From: a virus
DNA: 22,602 bases
Reading direction: 5' to 3' (one strand)
IMG/VR virus record: IMGVR_UViG_3300042889_000546
Span: 1 to 22,602 of that record
A program made the translations under genes and the position numbers. The first letter of the stretch is position 1. The number at the start of each line of letters is the position of its first letter. Below are positions 1,844 to 19,864 of this stretch, piece by piece. The notes below the pieces were generated by a model. That model ran no database searches. It worked only from the letters and a program-made list of their open reading frames with translations, and was not told where the DNA came from.

Positions 1844-3145
1844 ATGGGACTTAAATTTAGACGCGGTAGTACCGCCCAACAATCCGGTTCATTAGCATTC
1901 GGAGAACCATATGTGAATACCACATTGGGAACATTAGTAGTCGGTGGAGCATCAGGTGACATCGTATTATCATCAGCAGGTACAGGAAGTACCGGAAACT
2001 TTGGAGCAATTTCAGGTTCTGGTTTAGATATTACCGGAAATGCAAACATTGCAGGTAATTTAACATTAGGTGGAGCAATCACTATTGGTGATGCAACTGC
2101 AGATACTGTAAATGTTGTAGCATCTTTAAGTTCTTCACTTATTCCTCAAACAACAAACGCATTTGACTTAGGTTCTGCAACTAAAATTTGGAAAGATTTA
2201 TATATCTCAACAGGTTCTATTAAGTTTGTAGCAGGAACTACAGTTGTAAAAGAACTTAGTTTAGCAACATTAACTTCATTAGAAGCTGCAACAGGTTCGT
2301 CAAATGTATCAATAACAAATTTAAACACAACAACTGCAAGTTTAAATACTTCGGTTTCTAATTTAAACACAACAACTGCAAGTTTAAATACTTCGGTTTC
2401 TAATTTAAACACAACAACTGCAAGTTTATTAATTGAAACGGCTAATTTGGAAACATTTAGTTCATCAGCATTAACTAGACTAGATAATTTAGAAGGTAAA
2501 GATATCTCAATCACTTTAACAGGTGATGTGACTGGTACGGGAACTATTACTAATTTAGCAAACGTTTCATTTGCAACTACAATAGCTGCAAATTCAGTAG
2601 CATTAGGAACTGATACAACCGGTGATTATGTAGGAACAATTACAGGTGGAACCGGTGTAACTTCAACAGGAGCAACATCGGGTGAAGGTATCTCACATAC
2701 AATTTCAATCGGCCAAGCAGTAGCAACTTCATCAAATGTTCAATTTAATTCATTGGGTATTGGTATGGCTGCATCAGCAACTGCAGGTAGAATTGACGCA
2801 ACAAATGATGTAGTTGCATTCTCATCTTCGGATATTCGTTTCAAAGAAAATATCGTTCCAATTGAAAATGCATTGGATAAGATTTCTAAGATTAGTGGTA
2901 ACACTTATGATTGGAAAGCTGAAAACAAAGTTGAACACGGATATGAAGGAAACGATGTGGGTGTAATTGCACAAGAAATTGAAGCAGTATTACCTCAATT
3001 AGTTCAAACAAGAGAAAGTGGTTTTAAGGCAGTTAAATATGATAAATTGGTAGCATTATTAATTGAAGGTATTAAAGAGCAACAACAAAATATAGATAAT
3101 TTAACAATTCAGGTAGAAGAGTTAAAGAAGCAAAAAGGTTTATAA
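1844..3145 (+). CDS. Second tail fibre / virion fibre protein with S74 chaperone domain
   Basis: A complete 433-residue protein. The N-terminus (MGLKFRRGSTAQQSGSLAFG) is the kind of attachment segment seen at the start of phage fibre proteins. A beta-rich Gly/Thr segment and a NAFDLGSATKIWKDLYIST unit, common in phage fibre shafts, follow. At nt 2318-2428 a 14-residue unit (NLNTTTASLNTSVS) is repeated in tandem. The C-terminus carries an S74-type chaperone: SSDIRFKEN at nt 2825-2851, SGNTYDWK, GVIAQEIEAVLPQLV and a final coiled-coil-like helix. This end is clearly paralogous to that of the upstream fibre, including a shared stretch before the motif (QFNSxGxGxAAS). Either this gene and its neighbour encode two separate fibres, or one is a fibre and the other a collar/whisker-like appendage. 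The A-rich leader has no Shine-Dalgarno sequence. Confidence 0.85.
   Translation: MGLKFRRGSTAQQSGSLAFGEPYVNTTLGTLVVGGASGDIVLSSAGTGSTGNFGAISGSGLDITGNANIAGNLTLGGAITIGDATADTVNVVASLSSSLIPQTTNAFDLGSATKIWKDLYISTGSIKFVAGTTVVKELSLATLTSLEAATGSSNVSITNLNTTTASLNTSVSNLNTTTASLNTSVSNLNTTTASLLIETANLETFSSSALTRLDNLEGKDISITLTGDVTGTGTITNLANVSFATTIAANSVALGTDTTGDYVGTITGGTGVTSTGATSGEGISHTISIGQAVATSSNVQFNSLGIGMAASATAGRIDATNDVVAFSSSDIRFKENIVPIENALDKISKISGNTYDWKAENKVEHGYEGNDVGVIAQEIEAVLPQLVQTRESGFKAVKYDKLVALLIEGIKEQQQNIDNLTIQVEELKKQKGL
2318..2428 (+). repeat. 42-bp in-frame tandem repeat, 2.6 copies
   Basis: Two identical 42-bp units lie at 2318-2359 and 2360-2401, followed by the first 27 bp of a third copy at 2402-2428. 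The unit encodes NLNTTTASLNTSVS. Identity at DNA level, not only protein level, points to recent duplication or ongoing slippage. A change in copy number would lengthen or shorten the fibre shaft in 14-residue steps without breaking the frame. Confidence 0.95.
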
Positions 3146-3149
3146 TTTA

Positions 3150-4145
3150 ATGTATGATGTTTACTACACCACCGCTGGAGGACCTTGGTTTAACAGTGGT
3201 GCTGATATATGGGTAACTGAATGGATAAAAGAAGTGGCACCACACTTAGAGGTGAAGCCACTTCTTCTTTTCCATAGAAAGAAACCTGTTAATTACGAAG
3301 AATTTCCAATTGATATTGAGCATATTTGGGAAACCAATGAAGCAGAAATTGATAGAATCTTAAAGGGTGCTAGAAAAATACATATACTTCATGGTCATTA
3401 CACACCTACGACCGCTATTCATAATAATTTAGAAAGAATTGATTCAATCGTTTTTCACAATTTAACAAAAGTGTCTTTAATGGCACAAATGGAAAAGAGT
3501 GAATACTTACATTGGTACGGTAATTGGGAATATGAAAATGAATTAATTAATAAAATAAAAAATAAAATTTGGGTAGGTTTATATCATTTTCCATATGAAA
3601 CGGAAAATTTACATCATATTGCAAATTGTTATGAGTTTATAGAAAATAAACAATTAATAGATTCGTTTAATGTAGGATTTGCAGCAAGAGCAGAAGGTAG
3701 AAAAAATCCAGAATATATGGATAGTTTACCTAGTTTTATTTCTACGAATTCAGAAACATTTAACAAATATTATAAAAAAAAATACGGATATAAATTTGAA
3801 AAATCAAAAATATATAAATTTGATTTCAAATTCAAAAATAGATTTTATGGACTTGATTGGGGGATATCTCATTCTTGTTTTGAATATGAACCATTTGGAT
3901 ATGGAATATTTGAAGCAGTGGATTGGGGTAAACTTCCGATACTACATGAAAAATGGCACGTTCCTCTTGATTACAAATATAAAGCAGATAGTGCCGAATC
4001 ATTTAAACAAACATACGAAACAATTTGTAAAGATGATTATGAAACCCGTAAAAACGAATTCAATAAATTAAAAAATTGGATGATAACCAATTTTTCTAAT
4101 AAAGAAATGTGGAAACAAAAACTTTTAAATATTTATAACATATAA
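3150..4145 (+). CDS. GT-B fold glycosyltransferase-like protein
   Basis: 331 residues, starting 4 nt after the fibre gene stop, so probably co-transcribed with it. The C-terminal half has features of a GT-B (GT4-like) nucleotide-sugar domain: GFAARAEGRKNPEYM at residues 176-190 at the junction of the two lobes, with basic residues that usually hold the sugar-nucleotide phosphates, and an E-x7-E motif (E247 and E255, in EPFGYGIFEAVDWGKLPI) with the usual Gly and Pro after it. The N-terminal half (HILHGHYTPTTAIHNN, then IVFHN) fits the acceptor lobe. The predicted reaction is transfer of a sugar from a nucleotide sugar; donor and acceptor cannot be read from the sequence. Its place between fibre and lectin genes suggests it glycosylates a virion protein, but host surface polysaccharide or DNA are possible acceptors. 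An overlapping ORF at 3679-4071 in another frame is a shadow. Confidence 0.72.
   Translation: MYDVYYTTAGGPWFNSGADIWVTEWIKEVAPHLEVKPLLLFHRKKPVNYEEFPIDIEHIWETNEAEIDRILKGARKIHILHGHYTPTTAIHNNLERIDSIVFHNLTKVSLMAQMEKSEYLHWYGNWEYENELINKIKNKIWVGLYHFPYETENLHHIANCYEFIENKQLIDSFNVGFAARAEGRKNPEYMDSLPSFISTNSETFNKYYKKKYGYKFEKSKIYKFDFKFKNRFYGLDWGISHSCFEYEPFGYGIFEAVDWGKLPILHEKWHVPLDYKYKADSAESFKQTYETICKDDYETRKNEFNKLKNWMITNFSNKEMWKQKLLNIYNI
4130..4137 (+). promoter_or_regulatory. TATTTATA motif ahead of the Hint/LamG gene
   Basis: This copy overlaps the last codons of the glycosyltransferase gene and ends 18 nt before the ATG at 4156. It implies that the Hint/LamG gene can be transcribed separately from the glycosyltransferase. 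Inferred from position and recurrence. Confidence 0.35.
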
Positions 4146-4155
4146 CAACAATATT

Positions 4156-5865
4156 ATGGCAAGAACAAATTTATCATTAGGAAATTTATTTAGAGCAGTT
4201 AGTGGTTCGGTGAGAACCGGTGCTGTTTCTTTAGGTGGATTAAATGGAGGCATATCCAACACAAATATGCAGGGATTTTCATTTGATTCAGTAACAGTAA
4301 CTCCACCAACTTTTACATATATTGTAGAAAGTACAAGCGAAAACGCATTCTTTTCATTTGGAACATCGGGTTCATTTGTAGCTACCAAAGTGGCAACACA
4401 AACAAATAACTTTACTTGTTCTTTTAATAATGCAAACTTTACAGTAGGTGCAGCAACTTTGGGAACATATCCAACTTTTCCAATTACTCCTGCAGCAATT
4501 AATGCATCTAACTATTCCGAAGCTCAATCTACATTGACAATGGGATATGCAGATGGTTTTAATTTAGCTGCAAGTAACTATGGTGTTGCAAGTACCAAAA
4601 TTTTATACGCAGTAGATGTTTATAATACAATTAACCAACCAGATTTTTGTTTATTATTTGGTACACAAATAGAATTGGCAAATGGTACAATGGTAAATGT
4701 TGAAGATTTGAATGTTGGTGATGAAATTAAATCTTGGGTGCCAGCAGGTTTACCAGATGAATCACAAGACCCGGAGAGTGACCAAGTTGAATGGAGATTT
4801 TATCATTCAGAAACTTTATCAGGTTCAGCACAAAACGTAACAGTTAGTGATTTAACTTTTAACTTTGCAGAAGGATATTTTTCTTTAAATGATGGTTTAA
4901 TAAAATCAACTGAAACTCACCCTCTATATGTTTGGGATAATGAGATTTCAAAATATAAATTTAAGAATGTAGGTGATATATTGCCTGGAGATAGATTGGT
5001 AATGGAAGATGAAACTGAAGTGGAAGTTACTAATATTGAAATTGTAAAAGCAGATGTTGAGATTGTAACTGTAAATGTGGAAAATGCCGATGTATATATT
5101 TCAAATGGTTTAATTTCACATAATAAAGGTACAACAACTCAACCATCGATTCCTGCAAGTGGATTAAGATTATATACCGACCCATCTAAGGCATCATCAA
5201 CAAATGGTACAGCAACAACGGATTGGTTAGATTTAAGTGGATATGGAACGGGTGTTAGACCAGCTGGTGTTACAAATGCAGCAGGTATTACAGGTGGTAA
5301 CCCATCATACAATTCCGGAGTAAGAAAACAAACATCTTGGTCTTTAAATGGTACAAATCAATTCTGGTATAAAGATACTACTACAAATATAAATGGTGGT
5401 ATTTCTCAATTTAATACTAATACAGGTACTATTCATATGTGGATTAGACCTACAACCACTTTGGGTGTATCATCAAGACATATTTTTGATTACGCTGGTT
5501 TTTATGGTTTAGCAATTGAATCAACTGATAGTTCTACTTTAAATAGAGTAAAATTCTATGGTAGTACATTAGGTAATAGTGCACAATTAACAACATCATT
5601 ATCATCAAATGTTTGGTATATGATTTCAGCAACATTCCAACCATCAGGAACTGTAACGGTTTATGTAGATAAAACATCGGTAGGAACATTTACCGCAGCA
5701 GCATTTACGGCACCATCATCTACAAACTTTTTAACAATCGGTAGTAATAGTGCAAGAACAACATTTTGGAACGGACAAATTGGACCAGTATTATTCTACA
5801 ACACATTACAAAACGCAACATCAGTAGGACAAGTATATGATTATTTCTCACCAACATACAAATAA
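4156..5865 (+). CDS. Virion protein with internal Hint (intein-like) domain and C-terminal LamG-like lectin domain
   Basis: 569 residues in three parts. Residues 1-164 are a Ser/Thr/Gly-rich, beta-looking domain (start MARTNLSLGNLFRAVSG) that resembles virion proteins. Residues 165-323 form a Hint domain: Cys165 begins a block-A-like CLLFGTQIELANG with VEDLNVGDEI, T252-E-T-H255 gives the block-B TxxH, and the end reads VYISNGLISHN with His322-Asn323. No homing endonuclease lies between the blocks. The residue after Asn323 is Lys324, not Cys, Ser or Thr, which is the mark of bacterial intein-like (A-type BIL) domains rather than standard inteins. Residues about 335-565 look like a concanavalin A/LamG-type sandwich (WSLNGTNQFW, GTIHMWIRP, WYMISATFQ, TVYVDKTSVG, WNGQIGPVLFYN). 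Likely role: a displayed adhesin that processes itself. Whether it cleaves, splices or does neither is inference. Confidence 0.8.
   Translation: MARTNLSLGNLFRAVSGSVRTGAVSLGGLNGGISNTNMQGFSFDSVTVTPPTFTYIVESTSENAFFSFGTSGSFVATKVATQTNNFTCSFNNANFTVGAATLGTYPTFPITPAAINASNYSEAQSTLTMGYADGFNLAASNYGVASTKILYAVDVYNTINQPDFCLLFGTQIELANGTMVNVEDLNVGDEIKSWVPAGLPDESQDPESDQVEWRFYHSETLSGSAQNVTVSDLTFNFAEGYFSLNDGLIKSTETHPLYVWDNEISKYKFKNVGDILPGDRLVMEDETEVEVTNIEIVKADVEIVTVNVENADVYISNGLISHNKGTTTQPSIPASGLRLYTDPSKASSTNGTATTDWLDLSGYGTGVRPAGVTNAAGITGGNPSYNSGVRKQTSWSLNGTNQFWYKDTTTNINGGISQFNTNTGTIHMWIRPTTTLGVSSRHIFDYAGFYGLAIESTDSSTLNRVKFYGSTLGNSAQLTTSLSSNVWYMISATFQPSGTVTVYVDKTSVGTFTAAAFTAPSSTNFLTIGSNSARTTFWNGQIGPVLFYNTLQNATSVGQVYDYFSPTYK
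4648..5124 (+). other. Hint / bacterial intein-like domain within the virion protein
   Basis: The segment runs from Cys165 (TGT at 4648) to Asn323 (AAT at 5122), 159 residues. It has an N-terminal Cys, a TxxH motif and a terminal His-Asn. Chemistry expected from the family: an N-S acyl shift at Cys165 and Asn323 cyclisation that breaks the bond to Lys324. Lys at +1 cannot take part in the usual trans-esterification, so cleavage of one or both ends is more likely than efficient splicing. Confidence 0.78.
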
Positions 5866-5935: not shown

Positions 5936-8248
5936 ATGGCAGAAAAGATAGTATCACCAGGCGTATTTACAAGAGAAAACGACCTTTCATTTTTACAACA
6001 AGGTGTAGCTGACATCGGAGCAGCATTCATTGGCCCTTTCTTAGAAGGCCCATTGGTTCCAACAATCGTAAATTCACAAGCTGAATTCGAACAATTATTT
6101 GGAGCAGCTGATGGAACATATTATACTCCATTAGCAGTACAAAATTATTTAAGAGAAGCAGGAACTGCAACCATTTGTAGAGTAGCAGGAAAAACGGGTT
6201 ATACCGAAAAAGCTCCTTTATTATTAATAGCAGCATCAGGTTCACAATCGGGTGCATTGGGTATATTATTCAATACATCAGGAAGTGCAGTTGGATTCAC
6301 AGGAACAACAATTTCTGATTTAGATGGTAGTGGTGATTTTTCAATATCATTAAGTGGTAGTGGAATAACTCCAACTGGATATAGTGCGTCTTTAGAATTA
6401 TTAGATGATAATGATATTGAATCAGTATTTGGTACATCTGCATATGGTTCAAAAAGAGCTTATTCATATGCATTCTTTAAAGAAAACGGATTCTTATTCA
6501 ACACAGGTTCTTATACTTTATCTAATTCCGATGGATTAAATGTAGGAGCATATACAGCTTCATTTACAGCAAATGTAAGTGCTAGTGTTGTTGTATTAGG
6601 ACTTCAATCATTTAGTGGTTCATCTCAATTAGGTGAAGCATGTGAAGCACTAACACCAATTATTCAATCTCAATTAATTTCTGGTGATAGATATCCTTTG
6701 TTCCAAATTGAAACATTAGGTGCAGGAAACACAGCAAATACAAAAGTAAAAGTTGGTATTTCAAATGTAAAAGCAGCCGGTACAACAAACGGAACTGATT
6801 ATGGTACATTTACAGTTGTAGTAAGAGATTTTAATGATACTGATAAGAAAAAAAGTGTATTGGAAACTTATTCAAATGTAAACTTAGACCCTAACTCTCC
6901 AAATTTTATTAGTAGAGTAATTGGAGACAGAAAAAGAGAAATTGATTCAATAACAGGTAAAATAACTGAAAGTGGTGATTGGGTTAACAATTCAAAATAT
7001 ATTAGAATTTCATACTTAAATGTACAATCACCGGTTCAAGCAGTACCTTTTGGCCACGCTGCATATCAATTACCTGTAAACGCAGGAGCATACGCAAACT
7101 TTATTCCAAGAGTATCATTTACAACTGGTTCAGTAGTAGATTCTACAAAATATAGTGGTATTGATTTAGATAATAATGCAGATAACAAAATTTATATGAA
7201 ACCAATTCCTGTAAGTGCAGGAAACGGAGCAAACGCTGTATTCTCATTAGATACTATTTGTGGATTAACATTGAATCCATTAACACAAACATCAGCAGAT
7301 GTTGCAAAAAGACAATTTGTAGTAGCATTTCAAGAAGGTTTTGACGGATTCGCACCAAATACAAACGCAGCAGATATCGACCCAGCAACAACTGCAGGTA
7401 AATTAGCATACGGAAAACACATCGCAGCTTTATCTAACGCTGACGAATATGATATCAATATGGTAGTTGCACCACACGTTAATAGAGCAGACCATTCAGC
7501 TGTATTTACTTCAATTTTAGATATGGTTGAACAAAGAAATGATGCATTCTTTATTGCAGATGCAGGTAATGCAGATACAAAGATACCAGCAACTATAACA
7601 CAAGCACAAGCAGTAGATTCAAATATGGCAGCCGTTTATTATCCTTGGATTAAAACAATCGATGTAAACACAAACAAACTTATCACAGTTCCACCTTCAG
7701 TATTATTGCCTGGCGTATTCGCAGCAAACGATAGAGTAGCAGCAGAATGGTTCGCACCAGCAGGATTGAATAGAGGTGGATTAGTAGGAGCAGTAGCAGT
7801 ATTAGATAGATTAACACAATCTGAAAAAGATGATTTATATGAAAACAAAGTAAACCCAATCGTACAATTCCCAGGACAAGGTATTGTTGTATTCGGACAA
7901 AAAACTTTACAAGATAAACCATCTGCATTAGACAGAATTAATGTAAGAAGATTGTTATTATCTGTTAGAAAGTATATCGCATCTACTTCAAGATATTTAG
8001 TATTTGAACAAAACACATCTACAACAAGACAAGCATTCTTAAACATTGTGAATCCTTACTTAACAGGTATTCAACAAAACCAAGGTTTATACGCTTTTAG
8101 AGTTGTAATGGATGATAGTAATAATACTCCTGATGTAGTTGATAGAAACATTATGAAAGGAGCTATTTACTTACAACCAACTAAAACTGCTGAATTCATT
8201 CAAATTGATTTCAACATTTTACCAACTGGTGCAACTTTTGAAGGATAA
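5936..8248 (+). CDS. Contractile tail sheath protein (T4 gp18-like)
   Basis: 770 residues. The N-terminus (MAEKIVSPGVFTRENDLS, then IGAAFIGPFLEGPLVPTIV and a segment about an empty versus loaded position, EFEQLFG) is the standard opening of T4-like sheath proteins. The C-terminal part carries the conserved sheath core: NRGGLVGAVAVLDRLTQSE, NPIVQFPGQGIVVFGQKTL, RINVRRLLLSVRKYI and a last beta segment EFIQIDFNILPTGATFEG. The less conserved, Ser/Gly/Thr-rich middle (about residues 95-260) is probably a surface domain. The sheath contracts around the tube to drive it through the host envelope. The gene is followed directly by the tube gene, as in T4. The start is well supported: the ATG lies in an A-rich leader and the conserved N-terminus follows at once. 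Confidence 0.95.
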   Translation: MAEKIVSPGVFTRENDLSFLQQGVADIGAAFIGPFLEGPLVPTIVNSQAEFEQLFGAADGTYYTPLAVQNYLREAGTATICRVAGKTGYTEKAPLLLIAASGSQSGALGILFNTSGSAVGFTGTTISDLDGSGDFSISLSGSGITPTGYSASLELLDDNDIESVFGTSAYGSKRAYSYAFFKENGFLFNTGSYTLSNSDGLNVGAYTASFTANVSASVVVLGLQSFSGSSQLGEACEALTPIIQSQLISGDRYPLFQIETLGAGNTANTKVKVGISNVKAAGTTNGTDYGTFTVVVRDFNDTDKKKSVLETYSNVNLDPNSPNFISRVIGDRKREIDSITGKITESGDWVNNSKYIRISYLNVQSPVQAVPFGHAAYQLPVNAGAYANFIPRVSFTTGSVVDSTKYSGIDLDNNADNKIYMKPIPVSAGNGANAVFSLDTICGLTLNPLTQTSADVAKRQFVVAFQEGFDGFAPNTNAADIDPATTAGKLAYGKHIAALSNADEYDINMVVAPHVNRADHSAVFTSILDMVEQRNDAFFIADAGNADTKIPATITQAQAVDSNMAAVYYPWIKTIDVNTNKLITVPPSVLLPGVFAANDRVAAEWFAPAGLNRGGLVGAVAVLDRLTQSEKDDLYENKVNPIVQFPGQGIVVFGQKTLQDKPSALDRINVRRLLLSVRKYIASTSRYLVFEQNTSTTRQAFLNIVNPYLTGIQQNQGLYAFRVVMDDSNNTPDVVDRNIMKGAIYLQPTKTAEFIQIDFNILPTGATFEG

Positions 8249-8294: not shown

Positions 8295-8792
8295 ATGCCA
8301 AACGTTTTAACATACAACGAAATTTTTTACAAACAGTGGGAACCGAAATTAGCCAATAGATTCTACATGGAATTTACTGGAACTAATATCCCTGCATATT
8401 TGGTAAAAACAGCAGCTAGACCTACTTTTACATCTGAAATTGTAGAATTAGACCATATCAATGTAAAAAGAAAAATTAAAGGAAAATCAAACTGGGATGA
8501 TATCACAGTAACATTATACGACCCAATTGTTCCATCAGGAGCACAAGCGGTAATGGATTGGATTAGATTATCACATGAGTCTATCACAGGTAGAGACGGA
8601 TATGCAGCATTTTATAAAAAGAACATTACTTTCTACTCTTTAGGACCAGTAGGTGATAAAGTTGAACAATGGACTTTGGAAGGTGCATTTATCTCTCAAG
8701 CAAATTTCGGTGAAATGGATTGGAGTAACGCAACTGACCCGGTTTCAATTGAATTAACTTTAACATTCGACCAAGCTATTTTAGAATACTAA
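8295..8792 (+). CDS. Tail tube protein (T4 gp19-like)
   Basis: 165 residues, the usual length of gp19-type tube proteins. It has the family pattern: an N-terminal NRFYMEFTGTNIPAYLVKTA, a central beta segment with the loop VKRKIKGKSNWDDITVTLYDP, then WIRLSHES, WTLEGAFISQANFGEMDW and a final SIELTLTFDQAILEY. It polymerises as stacked hexamers to make the inner tube, around the tape measure and inside the sheath. It sits immediately after the sheath gene as in T4, and a strong terminator follows, which suits a high-copy structural transcript ending here. Confidence 0.93.
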   Translation: MPNVLTYNEIFYKQWEPKLANRFYMEFTGTNIPAYLVKTAARPTFTSEIVELDHINVKRKIKGKSNWDDITVTLYDPIVPSGAQAVMDWIRLSHESITGRDGYAAFYKKNITFYSLGPVGDKVEQWTLEGAFISQANFGEMDWSNATDPVSIELTLTFDQAILEY

Positions 8793-8889: not shown

Positions 8890-9705
8890 ATGAGTGAAAA
8901 TTTAGAACCACAATTATCTAGAGGCCTTGGACCAACGCAGACCTCTCAACAAAAATCTTTTCCATTTTCAACGGAAGTTATAAGTTTACCATCAAAAGGT
9001 TTATGTTATCCAGAAAGTCATCCATTAGCAAAAGGACAAATTACAATTAAATTAATGACAGCTAAAGAGGAAGATATTTTAACTTCTTCAAATTTAATTA
9101 GAAAAGGAATTCATATTGATAAATTATTAGAATCTATTGTAGTTGAACCTGGAGTTAAACCAGATGATTTATTATTGGGGGATAAAAATGCAATATTGAT
9201 TGCAAGTAGAATTTTAGCTTTTGGTGCCGAATATACTATTAGTATAAGAGATAAATATACGGGAGAAGATACTGAAGTAAAAGTTGATTTATCAAAAATA
9301 GAAATAAAAGATATAGAAGATTCTTTATTAAATAGAAACAATGAATATAATTTTAATTTGCCACAAACTAATACACCAATTAAATTTAAATTATTAACAC
9401 ATGGTGATGAATTGGCAATTAATAAAGATATCGAAGCAATGAATAAAATTTCACAATCAAGTTCAGAAATTACAGCTAGATACAGAAGAATTATTGTTGA
9501 AATAAATGGTAGTAGAGATTTATCAGTTATTTCGGATTTTGTTACTAATAAATTATTAGCAAAAGATTCTAGAGAATTAAGAAAATATATATCAAATATT
9601 ACTCCGGATTTAAATTTTACATTTAATTACACATATCCATCAAGTGGTGAAACGGAGGCACTTTCTATCCCATTTGGGATTGACTTTTTTTACCCTACCG
9701 AGTAA
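8890..9705 (+). CDS. T4 gp26-like baseplate hub / tail assembly protein
   Basis: 271 residues. It matches the T4 gp26-type baseplate family in its pattern: VISLPSKGLCYPESHPLAKG near the N-terminus, then the family signature ITIKLMTAKEEDILTSSNLI, IDKLLESIV, DDLLLGDKNAILIASRILAFGAEYTI, and a C-terminal IPFGIDFFYPTE. Where many relatives have a Cys-rich metal-binding-like turn after the YTI strand, this one has DKYTGEDTE and no cysteines there. In T4 the protein is named as a hub assembly component; its position ahead of the tape measure here would also suit a tail assembly chaperone. Its last 62 nt overlap the next ORF, which is in the +1 frame. Confidence 0.8.
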   Translation: MSENLEPQLSRGLGPTQTSQQKSFPFSTEVISLPSKGLCYPESHPLAKGQITIKLMTAKEEDILTSSNLIRKGIHIDKLLESIVVEPGVKPDDLLLGDKNAILIASRILAFGAEYTISIRDKYTGEDTEVKVDLSKIEIKDIEDSLLNRNNEYNFNLPQTNTPIKFKLLTHGDELAINKDIEAMNKISQSSSEITARYRRIIVEINGSRDLSVISDFVTNKLLAKDSRELRKYISNITPDLNFTFNYTYPSSGETEALSIPFGIDFFYPTE

Positions 9706-17776: not shown

Positions 17777-18553
17777 ATGAAAGAATACAAACACTTATCC
17801 TTTGAGGAAAGACAGCAAATGACCTTTGATTGGAGATATAGAGGTTGGACAGTTTTAGAATTATTAACCGAACAAGAGGTTGATGAATTAAACGAAGAAT
17901 TAGATAGATTAAGATTGGAAAGAAATGCAAACGAACCTGAAAAATGGCAAGAGTTTGAACCAATCATGCACCCACACAAAGTTTCTGAAAAAGTTGAAAA
18001 AATGTTTTCACATCCAAAAATTGTGGAAGCTTGTGAATTTCTAATGGAAGGTAATATAGTCGGAATGCAAACTTGGGGTTATTACAAACCAAAAGGTGAA
18101 TTAGGTAGAGACCAACATCAAAACGCATTTTATACAGGATGTGGACATAATGAAATTATTAACACTGCATTAGCATTAGATAATCACGACCCTGAAAATG
18201 GAGCAGTTTGGAATTATGAAGGTTCACATAGATTACCTATATTACCAATTGAAGATAATGAGGAAAGAAAGAAAACAAATACAGGTAACTGGAGAAGTGA
18301 GAGAGGTAAGAGTTGTGTAATGCCAGAAGGACATGATTTCAAAAAGATTGAAGGATATTTAAGAAAAGGACAAGTTGCATTATTACACTCACATGTAGTA
18401 CATGGTAGTGAACCAAATAGAGATACAACAAGAATGAGAAGAAATTTCTTATGTGGTTATTTAAAGAAGGGTGCATATTTCAATCCAGGTAACCAAATGA
18501 AAAGAGAACCAATTGACATTTACGAATTACGTGAAAAACATTGGGGAGAATAA
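17777..18553 (+). CDS. PhyH-type Fe(II)/2-oxoglutarate-dependent dioxygenase
   Basis: 258 residues, the normal size for the phytanoyl-CoA dioxygenase superfamily. The core is the double-stranded beta helix: GYYKPKGELGRDQHQNAFYT (first metal-ligand strand, His114), INTALALDNHDPENGAVW with NYEGSHRLPI (the usual family signature), and LLHSHVVHGSEPNRD with RMRRNF (distal ligand His209 and a likely 2-oxoglutarate-binding Arg at 219-222). The expected reaction is Fe(II)-dependent hydroxylation with 2-oxoglutarate and O2; the substrate is unknown. The first ligand pair reads His-Gln-Asn where the family normally has His-x-Asp. Such genes are frequent in marine T4-like phages. It sits between structural genes with its own promoter-like element. 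The first 80 residues are helical, with a TEQEVDELNEELDRLR start typical of the family. Confidence 0.85.
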   Translation: MKEYKHLSFEERQQMTFDWRYRGWTVLELLTEQEVDELNEELDRLRLERNANEPEKWQEFEPIMHPHKVSEKVEKMFSHPKIVEACEFLMEGNIVGMQTWGYYKPKGELGRDQHQNAFYTGCGHNEIINTALALDNHDPENGAVWNYEGSHRLPILPIEDNEERKKTNTGNWRSERGKSCVMPEGHDFKKIEGYLRKGQVALLHSHVVHGSEPNRDTTRMRRNFLCGYLKKGAYFNPGNQMKREPIDIYELREKHWGE

Positions 18554-18586: not shown

Positions 18587-18624
18587 TAGGGTATGAATCT
18601 AATTGAAGATAAACATACCCTACT
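18585..18624 (+). promoter_or_regulatory. Perfect 11-bp hairpin that covers the polymerase start codon
   Basis: AGTAGGGTATG (18585-18595) and CATACCCTACT (18614-18624) are exact inverted repeats around an 18-nt loop; the ATG at 18593-18595 is inside the left arm. Such a hairpin could hold the start codon closed and serve as a translational operator. A T-rich stretch (TTTTGTTTTT) follows the right arm, so a terminator or attenuator reading is also possible. Confidence 0.6.
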
Positions 18625-19864
18625 TTTGTTTTTAAAGGGTAATGTAAATATTGACCTTATAGTTCCTGTGTGGAGTTCTCATAGAGCACATCCATTAGGA
18701 AATCGTTTATCGTTTATTTATTATAGACAAAGTGACGGAAGTGATGGAATAATTAATTTCAATCACATAGATGCAAAAAAGTTAGACAAGTTTGACATAT
18801 CCAAAATAGTTCATGTCAATACATTAGTTTTAGACAATAGGTATTTAAACACCATAGGATTGGATTATGAGTGGGTATACTTTGAAGAGAATGGGAAACC
18901 ATTTATCTTTAGTGAGGTCGTAGAATCGGTTTATAGAGGGTATAGAAACGACTTTAAAGAGTTGAATGATTGTGTACCTTTAATGAAGTGGTACGAAACC
19001 CTAAAAACAATCCCAAATATCAGTACAAGAGAAGATTGGTATAGAAAATATACATCAGCAATCAATACATTGGGAAGGTTGGAAGGGGCTGGGGTAAAAG
19101 TCGTTGAGGAAAAATTTATTGATAGTTTTGCATTCAATCCGCAATACATCAAGCGAAACGGAATTGTGTTTACACAATACAATCCATACACCACAACGGG
19201 TAGACCATCCAATAGACATCTTAACGTCAACTACTCTGCGTTAAACAAATCCGATGGTACAAGAGAAATGTTTATTAGTCGTCATCCACACGGAACCTTA
19301 ATTCAATTTGACTATGAGTCTTATCACATTCGTTTGATTGCAAAAATAGTTGGGTATGAGTTTCCGGAAGGTACTACTGCTCACCAACACCTTGCAAACC
19401 TTTACCGATGTGATTTGGAGACGGCAAAGAAAATAACCTTTACATACCTTTATGGGGGATTAGACGATAATGCAAGAGGGATAGAGTTTTTCCAATTAGT
19501 AGATAAGTACATCAAGGGATTATACCAAAAGTTCGTCATTTCGGGAAAACTTACGACACTCTTATATAAAAGAGAAATACCATTCCATAGAATAGAGAGT
19601 GCAAACGAACAAAAGGTATTCAACTATTTACTACAATCATTGGAGACTGAAATCAATTATATGAAGATTGGTGAAGTATTGGAGTATTTGAGTGGGAAAA
19701 TGTCAAAAATGATACTTTATACTTATGATGCCTTTCTTATAGACACTCATCCGATTGAAAGAGAAAATCTTTTAAACGACATTAAAGAAATAATGGAGAA
19801 GGGTGGTTTCCCAGTTAAAGTTGAAGAAGGTGAGAATTATAACAATTTAGAGGTTATAAGTTAA
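18593..19864 (+). CDS. Short family-A DNA polymerase (polymerase domain only)
   Basis: 423 residues. The polymerase domain is clear: YNPYTTTGRPSNRHLNVN (residues 196-213), motif A LIQFDYESYHIRLIAKI with catalytic Asp240, motif B TAKKITFTYLYGG with Lys279, Phe283 and Tyr287-Gly288, and motif C LYTYDAFLID with catalytic Asp379. Differences from bacterial Pol I: the O-helix Arg position is Leu275, and the His-Asp-Glu of motif C is Tyr-Asp-Ala. The first 140 residues show no recognisable 3'-5' or 5' exonuclease motifs, so proofreading would have to come from another protein or be absent. T4 itself uses a family-B polymerase. Base use differs from its neighbours (25 G/C in the 60 bases at 19381-19440), with Cys, Arg and Pro codons spelled more variably, which hints at separate origin. 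An alternative start downstream of the hairpin cannot be ruled out. Confidence 0.82.
   Translation: MNLIEDKHTLLLFLKGNVNIDLIVPVWSSHRAHPLGNRLSFIYYRQSDGSDGIINFNHIDAKKLDKFDISKIVHVNTLVLDNRYLNTIGLDYEWVYFEENGKPFIFSEVVESVYRGYRNDFKELNDCVPLMKWYETLKTIPNISTREDWYRKYTSAINTLGRLEGAGVKVVEEKFIDSFAFNPQYIKRNGIVFTQYNPYTTTGRPSNRHLNVNYSALNKSDGTREMFISRHPHGTLIQFDYESYHIRLIAKIVGYEFPEGTTAHQHLANLYRCDLETAKKITFTYLYGGLDDNARGIEFFQLVDKYIKGLYQKFVISGKLTTLLYKREIPFHRIESANEQKVFNYLLQSLETEINYMKIGEVLEYLSGKMSKMILYTYDAFLIDTHPIERENLLNDIKEIMEKGGFPVKVEEGENYNNLEVIS

Follow-up and report, generated by a model that had tools for sequence, protein, structure and literature searches.

The window analyzed here is the whole of virus record IMGVR_UViG_3300042889_000546 (22,602 bases). 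Its tail block is T4-like according to Pfam and PHROGs, and beside the sheath gene it encodes a 569-aa protein in which a Hint domain lies between an N-terminal domain and a lectin-like domain. Positions of these features, and of related multi-Hint frames from other contigs, are given in Table 1. The C-terminal part, called LamG-like in the initial annotation, is indeed matched by Pfam Laminin_G_3 above the cut-off.

Table 1. Positions of features in the window and of triple-Hint frames in large related contigs.
Feature	Position	Strand	Basis
569-aa protein: N-terminal domain, Hint (BIL-type) domain, LamG-like domain	4156-5865	+	Translation, Pfam
N-terminal domain, residues 1-164, putative particle anchor	4156-4647	+	Model, FN3-type homology
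Hint domain, BIL-type, residues 165-323, no endonuclease	4648-5124	+	Foldseek, VIA-align 2, profile searches
Cys165 codon, putative N-S acyl shift residue	4648-4650	+	Cys in 73/73
Block B TxxH, Thr252 to His255	4909-4920	+	73/73; synonymous codon variation
C-terminal His322-Asn323, Asn cyclization motif	5119-5124	+	73/73; codon variation
Lys324-Gly325, first residues past the Hint domain	5125-5130	+	73/73
LamG-like (concanavalin A-like lectin/glucanase) domain, residues 417-556	5404-5823	+	Pfam PF13385, 1.8e-14
331-aa upstream neighbor, no recognized family	3150-4145	+	Homologues at related loci
Tail sheath gene, directly downstream	5936-8248	+	PHROG phrog_23, 6.1e-70
Two fibre-like proteins with Peptidase_S74 ends	3-1784, 1844-3145		
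Tail tube gene	8295-8792		
T4-type baseplate protein gene	8890-9705		
Triple-Hint frame	L236:318-2621	+	
Triple-Hint frame	L235:1668-3974	-	
Triple-Hint frame	L237:1148-3466	-	
Triple-Hint frame	L430:1225-3519	+	
Triple-Hint frame	L431:1457-3829	-	

The gene order around the protein recurs in its relatives. Judged by alignment ends, a sheath homologue begins 72-77 b 3' of the gene in 79 of 80 LamG-type relatives and 509 b 3' of it in the other. The 331-aa neighbor has a homologue in 76 of 80 LamG-type loci (the best 80 of 175 relatives) and another directly after the Hint-ending gene of LR756508, a 484-kb uncultured phage; it travels with Hint proteins of the LamG type, of the FN3 type described below, and in LR756508. 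A by-eye reading of it as a glycosyltransferase found support in no library searched. Elsewhere in the window, positions 17777-18553 encode a phytanoyl-CoA dioxygenase-like protein (PhyH, 1.3e-15), with a partial DNA_pol_A-like match (1e-9) just past it at 18593-19864.

Residues 1-164 gave no match in Pfam or PHROGs and none in phage records by tblastn, and a search of genome contigs with the N-terminal and Hint domains together returned 21 pattern matches, 0 of them confirmed. The N-terminal domain is mostly well predicted in an AlphaFold2 model of the two domains, and a homologous domain is present in FN3-type relatives; no match to its fold emerged from the 50 best rows of the fold list, which were filled by the Hint part. 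From the gene context beside the tail sheath gene, the 569-aa protein may be a component of the virion. An earlier description of the N-terminal part as virion-like is favored by that position, while Pfam, PHROGs and phage records offered no match in its support.

Identity of the Hint domain

Cys165, T252-H255, H322-N323, Lys324 as the next residue, and a domain length of 159 residues had been read from the translation in the initial annotation, and all are exactly as the translation gives them. As a Hint domain, the assignment is weak from one sequence and firm from the family. With the single sequence, Hint_2 (E = 0.02) and PT-HINT (0.063) fall below the Pfam cut-off, as does AXH (2.9e-4 on the Hint stretch), intein-containing NCBIfam models match only far below cut-off, and PHROGs and the PDB (phmmer) gave no match. 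Across 23 relatives, allowing E up to 0.1, Hint_2 matches all 23 (best 3.1e-4), Intein_splicing 21 (best 7.5e-4), and AXH again all 23 (best 1.6e-5). We read AXH (the Ataxin-1/HBP1 module) as cross-matching, as it stays below the cut-off and also matches undoubted multi-Hint proteins. A 66-sequence profile of the N-terminal and Hint domains matches the BIL domains 6y75 (7.5e-5) and 2lwy (0.0042) in the PDB, and within a small ORF set the multi-Hint protein of L236 matches the Hint profile of the window family at 6.6e-29, which ties the window's domain to undoubted Hints.

The fold comparison was made with the AlphaFold2 model of the N-terminal and Hint domains (66-sequence alignment, pLDDT 83.4, pTM 0.58); a model of the whole protein from 23 rows (pLDDT 45.4) was left out. 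The top VIA-align 2 match is Tetrahymena BIL2 (Z 18.8, 1.8 A, 141 residues, 23% identity), and the Clostridium BIL stands in the third row (Z 17.7, 1.7 A over 132 residues), tied with the DnaB intein (Z 17.2), as rows within one Z unit are counted as tied; further inteins and Hedgehog lie at 16.2-16.3. All 50 best rows are BIL, intein or Hedgehog structures (Z 13.5-18.8), and Foldseek ranks 1-5 are BIL domains. The earlier Hint call, sub-threshold when profile searches started from one sequence, is thus carried by the family profiles, the PDB matches to BIL domains and the fold comparison. No endonuclease was matched, and a 159-residue Hint leaves no space for one; the HN end agrees with the A-type description in the available text of PMC7765530. 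The domain is a conserved BIL-type Hint module, and for the loci examined a recent selfish intein is a very improbable reading.

Conservation of the junction and its relatives

The best 80 of 175 confirmed viral-contig relatives, together with the window, yielded 56 distinct LamG-type proteins (one without its first 24 residues), in which C165, T252, H255, H322, N323, K324, G325 and T326 do not vary. Another scan, made with the Hint of phage NCTB, returned 11 loci that have a homologous N-terminal domain and Hint but a fibronectin/Ig-like end. In Pfam the tail of one (L242) scores below cut-off with fn3 (0.0061) and Ig_Rha78A_N (1.5e-5), and that of another (L248) with neither. A sheath homologue (52-55% identity) lies downstream in all 11, and the 331-aa neighbor upstream in 10, the remaining locus being cut by the contig start. 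L242 has an extra 89-aa ORF (L242:5842-6111) between the Hint and sheath genes that the window is without.

A wider scan for this FN3 type (the best 80 of 177 confirmed relatives) covered 73 loci and 57 distinct proteins, all 57 of which carry the Hint and HNKG; seven further loci also have HNKG, their stop inside the match sitting upstream of the start codon. Over the N-terminal and Hint region these proteins share 30-37% identity with the window. The C-terminal module therefore differs by clade (LamG or FN3/Ig-like) while anchor, Hint and HN-Lys-Gly stay constant, which lends some support to the mixed adhesins suggested earlier. Module swapping within the LamG clade was also considered, as dS is 0.49 in the LamG part against 1.05-1.17; it was dropped because 4-fold divergence in a sliding analysis does not jump where the Hint ends, and because the neighboring genes proved equally variable.

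A set of 73 sequences (the window, 22 LamG-type and 50 of the 57 FN3-type proteins) was cut at HNKG in every sequence, none being reported without that motif; C165, T252, H255, P256, H322, N323, K324 and G325 are invariant throughout it. Among 66 sequences, codons change synonymously at T252, H255, H322 (CAT/CAC 26/40) and N323 (AAT/AAC 33/33), less so at K324 (AAA 62, AAG 4), and C165 is TGT in 66/66. Median dN/dS over 253 pairs of 23 LamG-type proteins is 0.30 for the N-terminal domain, 0.23 for the Hint and 0.20 for the LamG part. Invariance of five catalytic-type residues in 73/73 sequences, four of them with synonymous change, is not chance, and the invariant cutting residues with the lysine that follows suggest that self-cutting chemistry is in use. 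Because the constraint falls on the full residue set, we consider it probable that the domain acts as an autoprocessing element in nature. Position 305, which from a by-eye alignment to the intein motif we take to be the F-block Asp of inteins, is Ser or Thr in the 73-sequence set, and position 312 is Asp; with Ser/Thr in place of the F-block Asp, reaction rates may be low.

Such a set of invariant Cys, Thr, His, His and Asn (73/73) is not expected of a Hint fold that serves as a structural spacer and has no catalytic role. A spacer would fit one natural copy (L090), whose reading frame is interrupted by a stop codon immediately ahead of the terminal HN, and the activity of the domain is putative; we nevertheless consider this explanation improbable. 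L090, L087 and L125 had been candidates for natural splits at the Hint border and proved to hold one single in-frame stop and two frameshifts, and we do not count them as natural splits.

We also looked for alleles without the Hint. Among the loci within the best 80 per scan, 116 distinct ORFs cover some part of the protein, and 107 of these are N-Hint-LamG; the other nine are three that run off a contig end, five pieces of three copies broken by a stop or a frameshift, and one Erwinia protein. A scan with the LamG part only (best 80 of 216) added 69 new loci, 62 of them N-Hint-LamG and the remainder four Hint-LamG and three LamG ORFs that all begin at most 20 bases from a contig end. No Hint-less allele was present among the loci from six scans, each taken to its best 80 at most, a depth at which rare or distant ones may escape. 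Anchor, Hint and adhesive end thus appear to be inherited together among the loci examined. A selfish or degenerate intein kept in an adhesin by chance would have precedent in large phages, which have inteins in terminase and ribonucleotide reductase according to the available text of PMC3556154 and PMC7412058. The strong constraint, the lack of an endonuclease and of a +1 nucleophile, the failure to find an intein-free allele among loci from the best 80 per scan, and the position between two domains, the second of which differs by clade, make that origin very improbable.

The initial annotation had pointed to the missing Cys, Ser or Thr at +1, where the window has Lys324; all 56 LamG-type and all 57 FN3-type distinct proteins have Lys there as well, followed by Gly at +2, and from +3 to +14 no fixed linker is shared between the two types. 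The scan patterns lay in the N-terminal domain or were without the junction, so the HNKG count was not produced by the search. This Lys-Gly invariance, invisible in one sequence, argues against a freely varying +1. FN3-type tails have a median of two lysines; in the 20 of 57 tails that have the modal length of 104, no lysine but the one at +1 recurs in a majority of the sequences. In the LamG type, a majority of the 44 modal-length tails share each of seven further C-terminal lysines, so the argument from the +1 lysine is weaker there.

Other Hint proteins bear on the same residue. HN-Lys followed by 0 or 1-2 residues is found in LR756508, NCTB_135 and four multi-Hint proteins, so the lysine need not serve the joining of a C-terminal domain. 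Elsewhere among phage Hints the +1 position is taken by Thr, Val, Met or Ala. A lysine is present in the post-HN tail (1-29 residues) of 13 of 13 phage Hint-last proteins, a pattern noticed after the fact in a hand-picked set that includes several close relatives and leaves out the multi-Hint protein of G002 (L237), whose last Hint is without a terminal HN. For comparison, the ends of 54 other ORFs from the same loci have lysine at 9% per position and 17% at the last residue.

A further Hint protein was found in six of six searched contigs of at least 198 kb and in 0 of 12 shorter ones, with a third in G011. In five of the six, the same large contigs that carry LamG- and FN3-type proteins, it is a frame of 765-791 codons whose N-terminal stretch of some 300 residues precedes three tandem Hints; in the sixth (G012), the frame has 509 codons and a single Hint. 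The L235 protein matches PT-HINT (1.8e-17) and Intein_splicing (2e-14) above the Pfam cut-off. Four of the five triple-Hint proteins end exactly in His-Asn-Lys, and the L237 protein has no terminal HN. By eye, the first Hint of these proteins is without Cys1; an ATP-grasp-like reading of their N-terminal part, also by eye, had no library support.

Hint relatives without relatives of the N-terminal domain occur in 55 phage records (Erwinia 48, Dickeya 2, and one each of Yersinia, Alcaligenes, Salmonella, phage NCTB and an uncultured phage), and the Hint is last in the five of five proteins whose ends were read. All of the five but the Yersinia protein were compared with PHROGs: phrog_38766, "virion structural protein", matches two of them from end to end and one in its Hint part, and the NCTB protein matches another family. 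A viral scan with the LR756508 Hint gave 5 pattern matches, 0 confirmed. Microcystis phage Mel-JY01 and Flavobacterium phage immuto_2-6A, which are near by sheath, have no Hint beside the sheath by the Hint profile; nor was one found in their whole records, in a search that also missed the known Alcaligenes Hint.

Single frames of other kinds were seen as well. An 839-codon frame on a 276-kb FN3-type contig (L433:786-3302, +) closes with a Hint whose tail reads AKGGAPPG. In phage NCTB, L438:1450-2970 (-) ends in a Hint, and the next gene, L438:989-1471 (-), is little but Hint (161 codons, HNKVD end). An 832-codon frame of LR756508 (L439:628-3123), T4-type portal-like by eye, has several Hint-profile matches that are possibly inteins.

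Possible processing of the protein

Our best explanation is that a BIL-type Hint has been stably kept in an adhesin-like tail-region protein of a T4-like phage. On balance we favor active autoprocessing as a maturation step of this protein, a reading that draws on sequence constraint and the model. The reaction steps, with their timing and location, are proposed from the computed fold, residues, constraint, clade difference in the module and gene context. The fold would bring Phe164-Cys165 and Asn323-Lys324 close together, Cys165 would attack the preceding bond to form a thioester with the C-terminus of the anchor domain, and Asn323, aided by His322, would cyclize and free the C-terminal LamG or FN3 module. 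With no Cys, Ser or Thr at +1, the thioester would be resolved by an amine, most likely Lys324 (through its side chain or its new alpha-amine) or a lysine of a neighboring particle protein, or else by water. The Hint would then be removed, and the anchor re-linked to the adhesive module or another protein, or the parts separated. In the initial annotation, detachment of the LamG part, or attack by other nucleophiles on an activated N-terminal fragment, had been proposed, which is plausible; the observation behind it is confirmed, and the interpretation holds in part, namely for a constrained Hint/BIL domain with no +1 Cys/Ser/Thr in a block of structural genes.

Two outcomes that do not call on the lysine are sub-cases of active autoprocessing. 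In the first, the protein is cut at one or both ends, water resolves the thioester, and the LamG module either leaves or stays attached by non-covalent contacts. BILs with no +1 nucleophile give predominantly cleaved products in the available text of PMC7664689, and in that of PMC7765530 A-type BIL domains can undergo C-terminal cleavage and are unable to ligate their flanks, which counts against re-linking; the window has no +1 Cys/Ser/Thr. Cleavage of this kind would leave the invariant Lys-Gly at +1/+2 unexplained while the remaining linker differs by type, and we regard it as possible without expecting it. In the second, cyclization of Asn323 comes first, and the thioester is then attacked by the newly exposed N-terminus of the LamG part, so that the flanks are joined by a normal peptide bond and the Hint is released. 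This would make a nucleophilic side chain unnecessary, and the Clostridium BIL structure is among the closest folds (third VIA-align 2 row, Z 17.7). The lysine would presumably have no special need in such a reaction, Hint-ending proteins would seem to gain little from it, and the denial of ligation by A-type BILs in PMC7765530, as far as its available text goes, weighs against it too; splicing through the alpha-amine is in our judgment rather unlikely.

Within active autoprocessing, roughly half of the credit goes to resolution of the thioester by an amine instead of water. Invariance at the junction, with the analogy to BIL2, which is reported in the available text of PMC8616854 to make an isopeptide bond to lysine without ATP, suggests that the activated N-terminal part may be captured by an amine and makes a lysine acceptor a serious hypothesis, though that the resolving amine is a lysine side chain is doubtful when taken as a specific claim. 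More speculatively, phage Hints with HN-Lys might be conjugators that need neither ATP nor an enzyme, moving an anchor held as the Cys165 thioester to a lysine side chain. The target, just as tentatively, might be Lys324 or a lysine of a neighboring tail protein, giving isopeptide-linked adhesins or covalent tail decorations; such a reaction could be a viral counterpart of that of Tetrahymena BIL2. With at least two Hint proteins in the large contigs, and four of five tandem triple-Hint proteins ending in HN-Lys, this chemistry may serve assembly more generally.

Relation to known Hint systems

This kind of domain (BIL) is already known. Phage Hints or inteins are placed in terminases, ribonucleotide reductase or a putative helicase, or inteins are named generally, in the available text of PMC5259590, PMC3556154, PMC7412058, PMC13282480 and PMC8790156. 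Our searches of the open-access literature turned up no description of a Hint domain in a structural protein of a phage. Stable use of a BIL in phage adhesin-like proteins with differing C-terminal modules was likewise not found described in that literature, and neither were the fixed HN-Lys-Gly junction and the tandem-Hint proteins of the same genomes. Phage proteins built from such parts already stand in databases, under names such as "Hint domain containing protein" or "Fibronectin type III", and the sequences themselves are therefore no novelty.

The present family offers a strictly conserved and modular setting for asking what BIL domains do natively, with a constant anchor and Hint and a LamG or FN3-like end, and poses the question of whether intein chemistry serves phages in building or varying their adhesins. 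If the lysine is the acceptor, protein domains could be attached to each other on the virion with no enzyme involved, and the reaction would lend itself to protein ligation as a tool; if there is cleavage only, the result would be an adhesin-like protein next to the tail sheath that matures itself.

The Clostridium thermocellum BIL (PDB 2lwy), which we take to be A-type, shares with the window the Hint fold, Cys1, TxxH, the terminal His-Asn, and the lack of both a +1 Cys/Ser/Thr and an endonuclease. The window family differs from it in fixing +1/+2 as Lys-Gly, and in carrying the Hint within an adhesin-like protein beside tail genes, with a C-terminal domain that differs by phage clade. BIL2 of Tetrahymena thermophila (BUBL1 polyubiquitin locus; PDB 6y75, 6tmm) is the best fold match and is similarly placed, sitting between two independently folded domains according to the available text of PMC9200820. 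Its reported lysine isopeptide chemistry has a possible parallel in Lys324 as a candidate acceptor, whereas the ciliate flanks are ubiquitin-like and those of the window adhesin-like.

Among cultured phages, the Hint-ending proteins of Erwinia pEa_SNUABM_32, Yersinia fHe-Yen9-02 and Alcaligenes Afa-NA1 (phrog_38766) have a homologous Hint, matched by the 66-sequence Hint profile at 1.2e-16, 1.6e-11 and 1.8e-4, respectively, in a small ORF set, and they adjoin genes annotated as tail proteins. They differ from the window in a collagen-like N-terminal part (by eye and PHROGs), a Hint near the end, and a 10-12 residue tail after HN with Thr, Val or Met at +1. The Hedgehog C-terminal (Hog) domain is alike in fold (1at0, Z 16.2) and in that a Hint activates the part preceding it; in the available text of PMC7765530 and PMC7664689 it carries out the first step only and cholesterol is attached. 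Unlike Hog, the window's Hint has a terminal HN and is followed by a LamG-like domain instead of a sterol-recognition region, and unlike a class 1 intein it has Lys324 at +1 and not Cys, Ser or Thr.
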